Assembly (NCBI GenBank): GCA_025041175.1
Contig: JAKCFJ010000002.1
Location: 62,001-126,000 of the forward strand
Length of the DNA: 64,000 bases
From: Halobacteriales archaeon YIM A00010
GTDB taxonomy: Archaea > Halobacteriota > Halobacteria > Halobacteriales > Haloarculaceae
Reading direction: 5' to 3'
Numbering within the stretch: position 1 is the stretch's first letter; every line of letters starts with the position of its first letter. Both the position numbers and the translations under genes were made by a program. Under the pieces are notes generated by a model. That model was not told the DNA's origin. It was given only the letters and a program-made list of their open reading frames with translations, and searched no databases. Shown in pieces: positions 3,716 to 64,000 of this stretch.

Positions 3716-3725
3716 CTCGGTCCTC

Positions 3726-3826
3726 ATACTGTCGGACAGAGATGCTTGCATATCAGATGTTGGTGAACCGCCAGACAGCAACTGGATATTCCGTCTCATT
3801 CCTTATGTGGCTCTGTCCGACAGTAT
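3726..3826. repeat. Family A palindromic element, copy A1
   Basis: 101 bp bounded by ATACTGTCGGACAG and its inverse CTGTCCGACAGTAT. The inner part (GGTGAACCG, AGACAGCAACTGGATA) matches copies A4 and A5 closely. No coding capacity; it looks like a MITE. Confidence 0.85.
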
Positions 3827-3967
3827 CATAACGAACAACTCAACAACACAGTGTTGAATCTGAATATGATACTTATTCCACATCCGCAACCCCAACTAGC
3901 GATCTATATTGATCCGAACTAATAATATTATAGAATTGATAACACTACTAGTAAAAAACGAGTAGAT

Positions 3968-7934: not shown

Positions 7935-7952
7935 TATCGTGTCTTCATCGTC

Positions 7953-8053
7953 ATACTGTCGGACAGAGCCACGGATGGATTGAGACGGAATATCCAGCTG
8001 CTGTCCGGCGGTTCATCGGCATCTGATATTCAATCACCTCTGTCCGACAGTAT
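7953..8053. repeat. Family A palindromic element, copy A2
   Basis: 101 bp with the family ends; inner part in the opposite orientation to A1 (CGGAATATCCAGCTGCTGTC). Its right end runs into the dehalogenase: the last T of the element is the first base of the RC stop triplet TCA at 8053-8055. Confidence 0.85.
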
Positions 8054-8730: not shown

Positions 8731-8804
8731 CGACATTACGATAGAAATGATGGGGACTGTCCTCATAATTCTCGGGTGTTTGTGCGGACCGAACCGCGTT
8801 TTTC

Positions 8805-8901
8805 ATACTGTCGGACAGGGGCGATCGCGTATCGGCTGCTGGTGAACCGACAGATAGCAGCTGGCTAGTCCGTCGCACTCCGTCCGCAGGTCCGACAGTA
8901 T
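8805..8901. repeat. Family A palindromic element, copy A3
   Basis: 97 bp. Left end ATACTGTCGGACAGGGG; right end GGTCCGACAGTAT. Its reverse complement is very close to copy A6 at the right edge (shared GTCGGACCTGCGGACGGA). Confidence 0.85.
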
Positions 8902-27842: not shown

Positions 27843-28535
27843 TCAGATTAGCTGATTCCATGCAAAGGCGAATGATCTGAGCCACTCGTTTGCAGTTTCT
27901 GCGTGGGCATTGCTGAAGCAGTGTGAGAACGAAGAAGTTCTCCGTTTTATCTCACGAAAGACACGTTCGACGCTGTTCCGATTTCCATGACGTTCGTATC
28001 TGAAATCGAAGCCGTGTCGACGACACGCATGTTGTACTGAATGTGAATCATCAACGAGAACTACAGCGTTCACAAGACGCATGCGTCTTGTGTGCCCACG
28101 AGAACTGCATGCAGTTCTCGGGTCATCGTCAACATCATGTTTCTCAGCAATCTTAGTGAGAAATGAATGGGCGAGAGCCTTATTCGTGGTCGGCTCAAGC
28201 GTTGTATGGAGCGATTCGTTCGTGTCAGGATCAACTGCAGCGTACAGCCAATACTGCTCATCGTTGAGTCGGATCACGGTTTCGTCAACCGCAATGTGAT
28301 CCGGACTTCGTCCACCTTCGGGCTGTAGATCGGCCTTGTGAACCCAATTGTGAACGGTCGAACGAGGCCGTTCAACACCGAATACCTCAAGAATAGCAAC
28401 GGTATTCGAAAGAGATAGACCAGCAAGATGGAGCTGAATACCGAGCTTCATCAACAGTCGCGGTGTTGCTTCTCGCTCCATAAAATTCACGTCGATGTCG
28501 TCCAAACAACCGTTGAGGCGGTCGTTTTTGGGCAT
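27843..28535 (-). CDS. IS6-family DDE transposase with a 19-residue insert
   Basis: 230 residues. HTH part LHLAGLSLSNTVAILEVFGV and RPRSTVHNWVHKADLQPEGG; catalytic core HIAVDETVIRLNDEQYWLYA (D1), AVVLVDDSHSVQHACRRHG (D2) and RHGNRNSVERVFREIKRRTS (E). All three acidic residues are present. Between KHDVDD and AVVLVDD there are 19 extra residues (DPRTACSSRGHTRRMRLVN) coded by two perfect palindromes. The decayed copy at 8979 lacks them. The frame is kept; whether the enzyme still works is unknown. Confidence 0.9.
   Translation of the reverse strand: MPKNDRLNGCLDDIDVNFMEREATPRLLMKLGIQLHLAGLSLSNTVAILEVFGVERPRSTVHNWVHKADLQPEGGRSPDHIAVDETVIRLNDEQYWLYAAVDPDTNESLHTTLEPTTNKALAHSFLTKIAEKHDVDDDPRTACSSRGHTRRMRLVNAVVLVDDSHSVQHACRRHGFDFRYERHGNRNSVERVFREIKRRTSSFSHCFSNAHAETANEWLRSFAFAWNQLI
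28068..28124. repeat. Twin-hairpin insert in the IS6 transposase (57 bp)
   Basis: Two perfect 22-bp palindromes, 28071-28092 (CACAAGACGCATGCGTCTTG plus TG) and 28099-28120 (CGAGAACTGCATGCAGTTCT plus CG), joined by 6 bp. On the transposase strand it starts GACCC and ends GAAC. Compare 39020-39079 and 56679-56732. Confidence 0.9.
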
Positions 28536-40609: not shown

Positions 40610-40990
40610 GTGAACTACCTCACCTTACCACGCTCGGGGCTACTTGCCCCTTGCTTGTTGAGGGTGTCGCCAGACTACGTCTAGCTGTCACCGGCCTGTG
40701 GTCGGTTGCTTGAGGAGCTTTGCTCCTCACTGCTAACCAGATCGCGCTGCGTTCTGGTGATGGGATCTCGCAAATCACTACGTGATTTGCTGGATACGGG
40801 AAATCTTCGATTTCCGTGATCTCGCAAGAGCAACGCTCTTGCGGACCTCGTGGAGGTTCCCTCCGCTCAGTGACGAGACACTTCGTGTCTCGAACCACTT
40901 GACTCTGAGGCGGTTCACGAGCGACATGGCCACCGTTCTCACCGAATCGTCTCACTTCAAGCCGATGGGACGAGACAGGGCCGTCGATCG
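40610..40990 (-). mobile_element. TnpB-type transposon right end with a hairpin array (remnant)
   Basis: Read on the minus strand the segment ends GGTAAGGTGAGGTAGTTCAC at 40610, nearly the right end of the intact TnpB element (GGTAGGGTGGGGTAGTTCAC). Just before it the frame GDTLNKQGASSPERGKVR resembles the TnpB tail GSPTLNREPSGER. The remaining 250 bp is a chain of hairpins and no tnpB catalytic sequence is left. Possibly a PATE-like non-autonomous element. Confidence 0.5.
40636..40892. repeat. Array of ten mini-hairpins
   Basis: Stems of 4-10 bp with mostly 3-nt loops at 40636-40650, 40672-40682, 40690-40706, 40711-40729, 40736-40758, 40770-40790, 40799-40815, 40823-40843, 40843-40860 and 40874-40892. 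Examples: GCAAATCAC-TAC-GTGATTTGC, CGCAAGAGC-AAC-GCTCTTGCG, CGAGACAC-TTC-GTGTCTCG. Stem sequences all differ; linkers are mostly short (0-21 bp). Confidence 0.88.
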
Positions 40991-56020: not shown

Positions 56021-56345
56021 AAGTGTTCAGAAGGACTAGGGGGTCTACTCACTCAACTCCGTCGGTGCTCGCTGTCGTTTCGGTTGACGTGATCGATCAC
56101 GCTCCAATCACTGATCGTCACTTGCTGTTCGACGCTGTCCGACTCCGAAGTCGCCCCCGCTCTTATCGGCTGCCTAGATCGTTACATTCGTTCGGTTTGT
56201 CGTTTGTGGTGACTACTGATTTGAGCTCCTGATACCGATCGCTGTGCCGATCATCTTGGTCTGTTACACGCACCTGTCTCCTCTCGGCAACTACCCCCGA
56301 GGACCGGCAAAACAGAACGGTTCGTGAAACTCCAGAGCAGTCGTC

Positions 56346-56445
56346 ATACTGTCGGACAGAGATAGTTGAATATCGGCTGCTGGTGACCGCTAGACAGCAA
56401 CTGGATATTCCGTCTCAGTCCGTACGTGACTCTGTCCGACAGTAT
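56346..56445. repeat. Family A palindromic element, copy A4
   Basis: 100 bp, ends ATACTGTCGGACAG/CTGTCCGACAGTAT; the inner part is very like A1. It lies just before the decayed IS6 copy. Confidence 0.85.
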
Positions 56446-56489
56446 CACTCAACGACCGTGCCGCTACTCACAACAGTCACTATCAGCTC

Positions 56490-57064
56490 ATGGAACTCGA
56501 CATTCGACGCCACCTTGCTGATCTTTCTCGTTCGGATACTGTTCGAGAAGTAGAAACGTACGGTGTCGAACGATCACGAACGGTCGTGCGACTGGGTAGA
56601 CAAGTGCGATCTACAGCCGATCACTGGCGCTTCGTCGAACTACGTTGGATTGATGAGCAGCAGTATTGGCTGTCCGCAGTCACCAGAACTCTGTGAGTTC
56701 TGGCTGGCTCATCAGACTACCGTCTGATGAACGCTATCGATCCTCAAACGAACAGACTGCTGCACAAACGGCTGTTTTCGACGGCTACAATCACCCTTAC
56801 TGAAATATCTCTGCGAGAAGTGACCGGAAACACGACGTCAAGAACGCCATGTCTCTCGTTGATGGAGCAAAACAGCTTCAGTCGGCACTCCGTCGCTGAA
56901 GACTCCAATTCCAGATACAAACGCCGCGGACATCCGAATGTCGAACGTGTCTTTCATGAGGTAAAACACCACACTTCTTCGTTTTTAAATTGTTTCAGTC
57001 ACGCGAAGCCAGAAACCACAGAATCGTGGCTCTAATCTTTTGCTGTTTGGCATAATGCTACAAA
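56490..57064 (+). pseudogene. IS6-family transposase, decayed copy with hairpin insert
   Basis: Related to 27843-28535: LDIRRHLADLSRSDTVREVE, TYGVERSRTVVRL, WIDEQQYWLSAV, then after the insert NAIDPQTNRLLHKR, and RGHPNVERVFHEVKHHTSSF LNCFSHAKPETTESWL. Several stops and shifts. A 54-bp twin-hairpin insert splits the first catalytic region. Confidence 0.8.
56679..56732. repeat. Twin-hairpin insert in a decayed IS6 transposase (54 bp)
   Basis: CCAGAACT-CTGTG-AGTTCTGG (56683-56703) and TCATCAGAC-TACC-GTCTGATGA (56709-56730) joined by 5 bp; begins GTCA and ends AC, so that the whole reads GTCAC...GAAC. The intact transposase has nothing at this point. 54 is a multiple of three, but the insert contains an in-frame TGA. 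Confidence 0.88.
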
Positions 57065-61613: not shown

Positions 61614-61706
61614 TCGGCGGACACCGAGGTGAGCCACTCGGGGGGGTCGACGTTCGCCTCGAGGAGTTCGATCGAACGCTCCTCGACGGTGCGTGTACGC
61701 TGCTCA
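61610..61706 (-). pseudogene. C-terminal end of a gene cut by repeat A5
   Basis: EQRTRTVEERSIELLEANVD then PPEWLTSVSAE and TGA 61610-61612, which overlaps the isomerase ATG. The coding frame runs back directly into repeat A5, so the rest of this operon gene was removed. Family cannot be told. Confidence 0.55.
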
Positions 61707-61805
61707 TACTGTCGGACAGGGGTGATCGAATATCGGCTGCTGGTGAACGACAGACAGCAGATGGATAGTCCGTCTCGATCCGTACGTGGCTCTGTCCGAC
61801 AGTAT
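61707..61805. repeat. Family A palindromic element, copy A5
   Basis: 99 bp with the standard ends. It separates a truncated gene from the gamma-glutamyltransferase; the last T of the element belongs to that gene's stop triplet. Confidence 0.88.
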
Positions 61806-63769
61806 CACAGCCGCGGCTCCCGCTTGATCGCGTCGTCGCCAGCGCCAACGACGCCACCGCCGCGACGGGGATCGAACACGCCGACGAGTTCGTCTCGCTC
61901 CTGATCGACGGCGACCATCTGGGTGTCGCCGACAGCCCTGGTCGTCGGCTCCGTGGACGTCTCGTACCCGAGATCGCGTAGCCCTTGGAGGGTCTCTTCT
62001 GGGAGACCAGCCTCTAGTTCATCAGTGTAGATGTACATTCGCGGGTGCTCGACAGCCGCTTCCAGCGTCATGCCGTACTCGATCATGTTGAGGATCACGT
62101 CGATGACCGTCTGAGAGATGGAGCTACCGCCCGGGGAGCCACAAGCGAAAAGCGGCTTTCCGCCCCGCAACACCAGACTCGGCGCGGTCGTGGTTCGGTA
62201 GCGACGGAGCGGGCCGATCTTGTTCGGCCCGCTGTAACCGAGTCCCGAACCGATCGAGTTGTTGAGGAAAAATCCGTAGCCAGGGACCACGTTCCCGGTC
62301 CCGAAGCCCGACGAGAGGGTGCCAGTGAACGAGACCACGTTCCCGTCCCCGTCGGCCACCGAGAAGTGCGTGGTGTGCTCGGTCTCGGGCAGTTCCGCCT
62401 CGGCAACGACGTCGTCCTCGGAAACGTCGACCGGCGGATCCGTCGTCCAGGGTTCGCCGGCTTGGTACGCCCACGGGTCGCTCGGCTCGTTGAGAATGTT
62501 CGGATTCCGCGTCGTCCGGTCGATGAGCTCGCGTCGTCCGGTCAGGAACTCGCTGTCGAGGATCCCGCGGGGCACGTCGACGAACTCCGGATCGCCCATC
62601 GTTCCGACGACGGGATCGTTCATCGCCGCGCGGGCTTCCCACGTGAGGTGATACCGCTCGGCCGACAGCGGATCCGTCTCCGAGAGGTCGATCCTGTCGA
62701 GGATCTTCATCGCCGCCGGAACGATCGTCCCACCTTCGCCTGGCGCCGGTATGGAGAGGATGTCGACCGGTCGGTTGTTCGCCACCGACGGGTGGGGGTC
62801 CTCGTACCGCGTTTGGGTGGGTCGATCGATCGTCGGGCGATACGCCTTCAGATCCTCGACTCGCATCACGCCACCCCACTCCTGTACCGCGTCGGCGATG
62901 GCCTCCGCGATCTCCCCCCGATAGAACGGTCGGAGCCCGTCCGTCTCGATCAATCGGAACGTCTTTGCAAGATCTTCTTGGACGATGACGTCGCCCGCCT
63001 CGACCGGCTCACTGTCCGGAGCCCAGATCTCCCGAGCGGCCTCGTTCATCCGCCAGGCCGTGGCGCTCGCAACGCTTGCGACGTACTCGTCGACCTCGAA
63101 CCCCTCTTCGGCGAGCGCTGCCGGCGCGCTAGCGAGGTCACGGAGCGACTTCGTTCCCCAGTGTTTCAGCATGAGGTCGAGCCCGCGGAGCGTGCCCGGC
63201 GTTCCGACAGTGATTCCGCCGTAGAACAGTTCGAACCGCGGTTTGAGGTCCCCGTTCTCGTCGTATCGGATGCCGACCGAGGCGTCGATGGGCGCACGGG
63301 CCTGGGCGTTCAGCGCGTACGCCCGCTCATCGTCGGTCGAGTAAGCGGTCGCCATTGCGCTCCCACCGATTCCGGAGCCGTACGGATCGACGACCGTGAG
63401 CATCAACTGGACCATCGCCGCCGCGTCGAAGGCGTTTCCGCCGTTCCGGAGCACGTCCGCGCCTTCCTCCGCCGCGATCGGATTCGAAGCGGCGACGATC
63501 CCGTCCCCATCTCGGATGGATTCCGCCTCCCAGCCGGTCTCGCCGGCGGCACTCGCAGGTACGCCGAGCGCGCTCGGAACGGCAAGTGCCGCCAGTGTCC
63601 CTTTCAAGAAATCCCGTCGAACCGCCGACGGCCACAGCCGATCGTCGTTGCTCGCTGTGAGCGCTCTTTCTGCCCGGTCTCTCCCCTCTCGCGTCGAAAC
63701 GTGGTAGTCACTCGACTCGTCCTCCTCCCGGTTGCCGTCTGCCACCATGTTTCTCTCCATCGTCTTCAT
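61805..63769 (-). CDS. ggt: Gamma-glutamyltransferase, Tat-exported
   Basis: 654 residues. A polar 50-residue leader, then the Tat signal VRRDFLKGTLAALAVPSALG; ATG choices downstream of 63769 are possible. The mature enzyme starts near GIVAASNPIAAEEGADVLRN GGNAFDAAAMVQL. The self-cleavage and catalytic Thr 466 lies in ETEHTTHFSVADGDGNVVSF; the substrate pocket GYGFFLNNSI and GSPGGSSI are present. It transfers or hydrolyses gamma-glutamyl groups (glutathione-like thiols, poly-glutamate) outside the cell. The gene ends exactly at repeat A5. Confidence 0.92.
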   Translation of the reverse strand: MKTMERNMVADGNREEDESSDYHVSTREGRDRAERALTASNDDRLWPSAVRRDFLKGTLAALAVPSALGVPASAAGETGWEAESIRDGDGIVAASNPIAAEEGADVLRNGGNAFDAAAMVQLMLTVVDPYGSGIGGSAMATAYSTDDERAYALNAQARAPIDASVGIRYDENGDLKPRFELFYGGITVGTPGTLRGLDLMLKHWGTKSLRDLASAPAALAEEGFEVDEYVASVASATAWRMNEAAREIWAPDSEPVEAGDVIVQEDLAKTFRLIETDGLRPFYRGEIAEAIADAVQEWGGVMRVEDLKAYRPTIDRPTQTRYEDPHPSVANNRPVDILSIPAPGEGGTIVPAAMKILDRIDLSETDPLSAERYHLTWEARAAMNDPVVGTMGDPEFVDVPRGILDSEFLTGRRELIDRTTRNPNILNEPSDPWAYQAGEPWTTDPPVDVSEDDVVAEAELPETEHTTHFSVADGDGNVVSFTGTLSSGFGTGNVVPGYGFFLNNSIGSGLGYSGPNKIGPLRRYRTTTAPSLVLRGGKPLFACGSPGGSSISQTVIDVILNMIEYGMTLEAAVEHPRMYIYTDELEAGLPEETLQGLRDLGYETSTEPTTRAVGDTQMVAVDQERDELVGVFDPRRGGGVVGAGDDAIKREPRL

Positions 63770-63911
63770 TCATAAAATATTTTCCCACTACTATCGTATA
63801 AATTGAGATAATCCCACGTTATCGTTTCGTTAGTGCGCTCGGGATGTCAGTACTTTCCTCGGCATACGTACCGAACCGGCGTTCCGGTCGATTGTGGCGT
63901 CACGAGGGTTG

Positions 63912-64000
63912 ATACTGTCGGACCTGCGGACGGAATGCGACGGACTATCCAGCTGCTGTCTGGCGATTCACCAGCAGACGATGTTCGATCACCCCTGTCC
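63912..64000. repeat. Family A palindromic element, copy A6 (cut by the window edge)
   Basis: Starts ATACTGTCGGACCTGCGG and matches the inverse of copy A3 to the window edge; the last bases (CCCCTGTCC) are the beginning of the other terminus. Confidence 0.85.

Follow-up and report, generated by a model that had tools for sequence, protein, structure and literature searches.

The insert at positions 56679-56732 of the window (the whole stretch of DNA analysed, 64,000 nucleotides) is, we believe, probably a single unit from a family of paired palindromes in haloarchaea, mobile but non-autonomous, which would be moved as single-stranded DNA in the IS200/IS605 style by an enzyme supplied in trans. 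At the level of sequence comparison, the family is miniature palindromic mobile DNA, ordinary in kind but larger and clearer than the first-pass annotation could show, and the window copy is an inherited single-unit example of it. No report of this family, here called class A, was found in the literature searched; most subscription journals lay outside that search.

The insert and its host gene

Read directly, positions 56679-56732 are GTCACCAGAACTCTGTGAGTTCTGGCTGGCTCATCAGACTACCGTCTGATGAAC, flanked by TGGCTGTCCGCA and GCTATCGATCCT; the junctions read TTGGCTGTCCGCA|GTCACCAGAACTCTGTGAGTTCTGGCTGGCTCATCAGACTACCGTCTGATGAAC|GCTATCGATCCT, and the insert is 54 bp long. It separates two alanine codons exactly (WLYA|AVDP) in an IS6 transposase, the uninterrupted order being present at window 28250 and elsewhere. 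The features considered are the following.

56679..56732, plus strand: class A twin-hairpin unit of 54 bp, inserted exactly (covariance model 70.3 bits; 10 ungapped empty-site copies)
56679..56708, plus strand: hairpin A, with a GTCA/TGGC foot, one bulged base, a 9-bp stem CCAGAACTC/GAGTTCTGG and the loop TGT (DNA fold; foot-pair covariation)
56709..56730, plus strand: hairpin B, 9-bp stem TCATCAGAC/GTCTGATGA, loop TACC (DNA fold; covariation)
56731..56732, plus strand: terminal AC; the unit ends in GAAC and the next base is G, target N|GC (sequence; flank tally)
56490..56678, plus strand: host IS6 transposase pseudogene, 5' part, ending ...WLSA (ORF; alignment)
56733..57035, plus strand: host IS6 transposase pseudogene, 3' part, starting AIDPQTN (ORF; alignment)
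28068..28124, minus strand: second IS6 insert, class C, 57 bp, in frame and stop-free, between D and AVFLVD (covariance model; alignment)
40793..40846, plus strand: lower-scoring relative (41 bits), probably a twin-hairpin unit from a different class (covariance model)
40705..40761, minus strand: lower-scoring relative (36.3 bits), probably a twin-hairpin unit from a different class (covariance model)

Folded as DNA, the insert reaches -16.8 kcal/mol (z -6.7), a value that none of 200 shuffles equalled. Hairpin A has four extra foot pairs (GTCA/TGGC) around one bulged base, and hairpin B adjoins it directly. The sequence and the fold thus agree with the first-pass annotation, which had described a 54-bp twin-hairpin insert here; the in-frame TGA that it reported is also present, the ORF terminating at 56696. 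Of the two other inserts of the same build that it mentioned, one is the 57-bp insert in IS6 at 28068-28124 on the minus strand, and the other is probably 40705-40761 or 40793-40846.

The host IS6 gene was already a degenerate pseudogene, with additional deletions relative to intact copies in the alignment. A Pfam search with the two host IS6 fragments flanking the insert gave zero matches, as expected for short degenerate pieces.

A separate repeat of about 105 bp (window 56340-56448) lies just upstream of the IS6 remnant. Its copies at 3720-3828, 7950-8053, 8803-8901, 61704-61808 and 63910-64000 are 75-88% identical; with its CTGTCGGACAG-like inverted ends, it looks like another MITE.

Fold, distribution and arrays of the family

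BLAST of the insert region against its own genome (G000, 5.97 Mb, 7 contigs) found 12 places, and the insert with short flanks found 26, reaching weak E-values; 27 units from these loci were aligned. As far as aligned sequences can tell, the two-hairpin fold is maintained by compensatory change. The two helices are paired in 92.3% of cells (92.4% once the foot of hairpin A is included), and both sides have changed in 73 cells, whereas shuffling gives 22.1 on average and sliding the partners never more than 17. Relatedness by itself can lift sequences above shuffles even where there is no structure, but the slid controls lack this signal. The foot pair 4-27 of hairpin A is A-T in 18 of the 27 units, C-G in four, G-T in two and unpaired in three. 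The earlier remark that stems differ between units stands, and the change is strongly compensatory; loops vary freely, and arms change jointly.

The unit is a block of about 55 bp of the form GTCACC-hairpin-YTGGC-hairpin-GAAC, with loops mostly of three bases, C-G first pairs and the linker YTGGC. Its length ranges from 48 to 58 bp and is mostly 55; 23 of the 37 measurable units have 55 bp and four have 57 bp (41 loci, minus L163, L165, L169 and L174, which were not measurable). Further twin-hairpin classes in the same genome (B to E) have other linkers and ends, and the covariance model scores them lower; we do not claim common descent of all the classes. Rfam gave zero matches for the unit up to E 1, as well as up to E 0.1 in a second search.

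The covariance model matches the window unit at E 1e-16; this unit was in the training set, but many untrained units were matched too. In the own genome, 154 matches reach E<=1 and 95 reach E<=1e-6; many of the 154 fall on a single place read from either strand. Reduction to one strand leaves about 91 non-overlapping units, single and tandem, at 69 loci, with a locus density of 8.6 to 17.7 per Mb on the four large contigs. Matches at E<=1e-6 are present in 34 of 39 genomes, the own genome included, and in 28 of 33 genera. A wider phylum sample of 196 genomes, treated with stricter filters and E<=1e-8, has a match in 23 of 33 genomes of the same order versus 0 of 163 others. The exact pattern of hairpin A with the linker occurs in 41 stretches among 84,980 species genomes. 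Forty are haloarchaeal by name; the remaining one belongs to Euryarchaeota archaeon B79T1B8, and its flank resembles Halorubrum loci. The pattern search of viral contigs returned 0 stretches and thus gives no evidence for a viral carrier.

In one genus (g20: G025, G118, G138 and G197; L230-L255), many class A units share a fixed position within a larger intergenic repeat of many copies; in several of these copies, another twin-hairpin class is also present at a distance of about 45 bp.

The units occur singly or in head-to-tail arrays. All 31 array units considered (11 arrays, own genome) are closest to a unit of another array and none to a unit of its own, the mean best similarity being 0.87 to another array and 0.71 within the same one, which argues for assembly from different units rather than for local duplication. 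Local tandem duplication occurs too, as indicated by an array in G004 (L262, 640-859) with three identical 55-bp units in a row. A common order of units across arrays was also considered (6 concordant and 4 discordant cases); 761 of 2000 shuffles scored as high, and the idea was dropped.

Precise insertion and the possible mode of movement

The host's IS6 group is matched at 36 places of the own genome. Judged by filled and empty copies, the insertion is precise, without duplication or loss of the target. Ten full-length IS6 copies (L189-L195, L199, L201 and L203) are ungapped across both insertion sites, which also confirms the boundaries first assigned to the insert; the joined flanks of the class C site served as the empty IS6 reference. 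Inserts of 54 to 266 bp are found at WLYA|AVDP (site 1) in nine copies (L202, L204, L206, L208, L211, L216, L111, L112 and the window), and the 57-bp class C insert is found at D|AVFLVD (site 2) in six (L188, L196-L198, L200 and L205). L206 and L210 were put at site 2 by hand, as the pairwise alignment did not give one gap. Two codons of the IS6 group were consequently struck, in agreement with the first-pass annotation, which had reported a second insertion at another codon. L194 and L198 are identical at 624 of 650 flank positions, and the sole length difference is the 57 bp of the insert, without duplication.

Copies with the empty site, which the first-pass annotation proposed to look for, were thus found, and members of the family occupy many loci unrelated to each other. 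Outside IS6, L122 has ungapped counterparts in its own paralogues and in the sister species G006 and G003 (joined-flank query, 12 loci). G000 and G003 share a 55-bp unit at the orthologous L084 position. Two larger sister-species counterparts of L094 were considered as a full-length relative and rejected; they appear to contain unrelated coding sequence.

The flanks of the own genome and of 16 units of relatives point to the target preference N|GC: the units insert 5' of GC and less often of GT. At +1, 35 of 39 flanks have G, and positions +1 and +2 together read GC in 28 and GT in 5; C is present at +2 in 28 of 39 and at +3 in 30 of 39. On the other side, 29 of 40 distinct flanks have C at -1. 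An IS91-type target GAAC is ruled out, as GAAC falls inside the insert at loci with an empty site.

The IS200/IS605 TnpA and RAYT systems use bulged hairpins, exact ends and a short one-sided target, and they duplicate no target sequence. Two hairpins with one bulged base, exact ends, the lack of duplication and a short one-sided target in the present case suggest that the DNA is transferred as a single strand by a trans-acting enzyme. We presume that the unit moves as folded single-stranded DNA and is recognised by its shape and end motifs, and that the enzyme, similar to TnpA or RAYT transposases, is encoded elsewhere. New units would land serially at the end of resident ones, which would produce arrays. 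The window copy would go back to an old insertion, inherited within an IS6 copy that is now dead; after the split from its sister L111, the array either shrank to one unit in the window or, alternatively, reached four in L111.

The comparison of Y1 transposases across 39 genomes found no mobiliser for the units. Y1_Tnp is present in 21 of the 39, with four in the own genome; Y1-free carriers exist (G025 has 7 units and 0 Y1), and unit numbers differ weakly between genomes with and without Y1 (Mann-Whitney p = 0.06). In the stretches read, none of the four Y1 genes of the own genome has class A units on its flanks; a full-length element with class A unit ends was not found either. Twin hairpins of other classes are observed in or beside Y1 transposase (TnpA/TnpB) loci, at L144 (712-757, 1060-1104 and 1459-1508) and L145 (1405-1451 and 1828-1868). 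Since some carriers have no Y1, it is tempting to propose a haloarchaea-wide minimal mobile DNA, with folded units of about 55 nt inserted serially at N|GC, recognised by shape and not by sequence, moved by a non-Y1 enzyme, and persisting in frame in host genes as translated loops; we consider this wider proposal rather doubtful.

It is possible, although we do not favour it, that the hairpins are what remains of IS605-type transposons after deletion of the core, with left and right ends fused, i.e., terminal-only PATEs. Those of Haloquadratum walsbyi are 52 bp long (PMC3119063). According to the part of that account used here, PATEs resemble class A in being haloarchaeal, about 50 bp long, non-coding and multicopy, with two near-terminal palindromes and no target duplication (PMC3119063), and class A units are also found beside and inside TnpB elements. 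The following points speak against this reading. The ends of PATEs match the ends of IS605-type transposons (PMC3119063, same part), whereas the four Y1 loci read here contain no IS605-type element ending in these two hairpins. PATEs follow a conserved target of 4-5 bases, again as far as that part of the source goes (PMC3119063), while class A has no such targeting sequence outside the unit, its flanks showing only G at +1, C at +2 and +3 and C at -1; with 1-2 bases, its target is less specific than those of IS605-type elements, for which 4-5 bases are described. Finally, tandem arrays of unlike units with variable stems are common in class A and are not described for PATEs in the same part of the source (PMC3119063).

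SMR-A elements of Haloquadratum, in the portion of the description relied on here, are also similar to class A: they are enzyme-free, make no target duplication and often lie within IS605-type elements (PMC3119063), where they target the near-terminal palindromes. Compared by this description, they are about 110 bp long with prominent terminal inverted repeats (PMC3119063), and class A units are about 55 bp; the ends GTCACC of class A and GTTCA of SMR-A share just a GTC/GTT-like similarity.

Bacterial systems offer further comparisons. REPINs and BIMEs are mobile units made of an inverted palindrome pair, with near-identical halves in REPINs, and are served by a RAYT helper in trans. The palindrome pair is common to them and class A, but the hairpins of class A differ from each other, and no RAYT with class A flanks was found in the stretches read. 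The head-to-head dimers of CGTC-tagged REPs have, in the portion of their description considered, hairpins of 8-9 bp, outward CGTC-like tags, intragenic copies and no dedicated transposase (PMC3733652), as class A does. However, these REPs are bacterial and, in the same portion, have loops of 4-5 bases, A-T first pairs and CCA tails (PMC3733652), whereas class A has mostly 3-base loops, C-G first pairs and the linker YTGGC; when the criteria for these REPs are applied to class A, the tag and stem fit in part, and the loops and tails do not. The palindromic elements of Rickettsia, as presented in the part of the source consulted, likewise survive in frame within protein genes (PMC10969869), but they are bacterial and about 150 bp long, while the in-frame units seen here have 57 bp, with three clear cases. 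For each of PATEs, SMR-A elements and CGTC-tagged REP dimers, class A lacks at least one of the defining features tested, so we assign it to none of them, although it appears to work alike.

Inheritance in IS6 and the genomic settings

The preferred reading, a family moved in trans, has to be weighed against inheritance without present mobility. According to this alternative, which we consider unlikely, a few ancient insertions were copied together with IS6, IS605 and other repeats and were reshaped by hairpin repair or recombination. It was addressed with a tree of 28 IS6 copies from which the insert columns were removed. The tree excludes L104a, L104b and L114 (duplicates of L206, L210 and L200), second fetches of included copies (L218-L226, L134, L137, L139, L116, L120, L127, L125 and L119), and copies too short or undeterminable (L214, L217, L207, L126, L212, L213 and L115).

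For the window copy, inheritance is the simplest explanation. Its sister with 100/100 support is L111 (G000:C2:765.6k), which has an insert at the same nucleotide, with four units versus one. As both are filled at this nucleotide, the window insertion was most simply inherited from their common ancestor, with only the number of units changed afterwards. For the group as a whole, the sequences likely point the other way. The site-1 label requires 6 changes on the tree (bootstrap range 4-6; shuffled mean 7.8), a single change occurs in 0% of 200 bootstrap trees, and the site-2 label likewise requires 6. One clade of site-1 inserted copies stays compatible with the AU test (p = 0.065), so that repeated insertion at the same IS6 nucleotide is the better reading but is unproven. 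L194 is empty within a clade carrying the insert, which may reflect precise loss, gene conversion or separate gain.

The first-pass annotation argued for active insertion rather than inheritance. This stands in so far as the build recurs, two codons were struck and empty sites exist; it does not stand for the window copy itself. The competing idea that the insert is ancestral to the whole IS6 subgroup is disfavoured, since inserted copies do not group, yet the same AU value leaves a single clade unrejected. The alternative of inheritance alone also agrees with the units at one fixed place within a multicopy repeat in Halorubrum-like genomes, and with several closely similar IS6 copies having an identical class C insertion. 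It is at odds with inserts at the same nucleotide in diverged IS6 branches whose near relatives are empty, with the many unrelated contexts, with 69 loci in one genome and with precise empty sites at several loci. It was also observed that the class C insert of 57 bp, in frame and free of stops, is carried by highly similar IS6 copies at several places of the genome (window 28068-28124; L196, L197, L198 and L200), so that it appears to travel with the IS.

The settings of the units are diverse. An IS6 match is within 700 bp of 14 of the 69 loci (1.0 expected under random placement), a figure inflated by the fact that IS6 copies carry inserts along and that the search started in IS6; the three hand-added IS6 rows were left out of this count. 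A TnpB domain is within 1.3 kb of 11 of the 69 loci (0.9 expected under random placement). Some units are in the hairpin-rich 3' ends of IS605-type elements, a setting also described for SMR-A elements of Haloquadratum (PMC3119063); most loci are elsewhere.

Of the four 57-bp units among the 37 measured, three are in frame, the fourth being L154. In Haloferax marisrubri (L175) and Halobium salinum (L182), the unit occupies the same place in short-chain dehydrogenase genes, where it reads as 19 additional residues; the Pfam domain spans it (E 7e-36 and 7e-38). At L168, the unit is inside a long acidic reading frame. The units at L154 (Haladaptatus sp. DYF46) and L183 (Halorientalis pallida) lie at what we take to be a dnaK 3' end, where hairpin B codes for acidic residues followed by a stop, as though it had been fitted to the tail. 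In Halolamina salifodinae (L155), a 55-bp unit after an ILLTNDD motif shifts the frame of a conserved gene, presumably surE-like.

The strong enrichment in IS6 and TnpB genes could alternatively mean that the units are a host device, i.e., structured RNA or terminator-like hairpins inserted in transposons for silencing. A defence role was proposed for SMR-A elements in the part of the source cited above (PMC3119063). We consider this very improbable: units are also in host genes in frame, no Rfam family corresponds to them, and the IS6 copies with the 57-bp class C insert are found at several places of the genome with high similarity. We give almost no credence to products of template switching or hairpin misrepair that form no mobile family. 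Palindrome correction would indeed yield freely varying loops and jointly changing arms, but conserved ends, linker and target preference across many genera are hard to obtain via local copying.

If a mobile palindrome-pair family is indeed what we observe, its units would rank with the smallest known units of mobile DNA, with a wide distribution in a single archaeal order. For annotation, the observation is a warning: many broken haloarchaeal transposase genes carry units, and some intact genes carry them in frame. Filled and empty sites within one genome would also make the spread of enzyme-free palindrome repeats, which is an old question, testable in a laboratory haloarchaeon.
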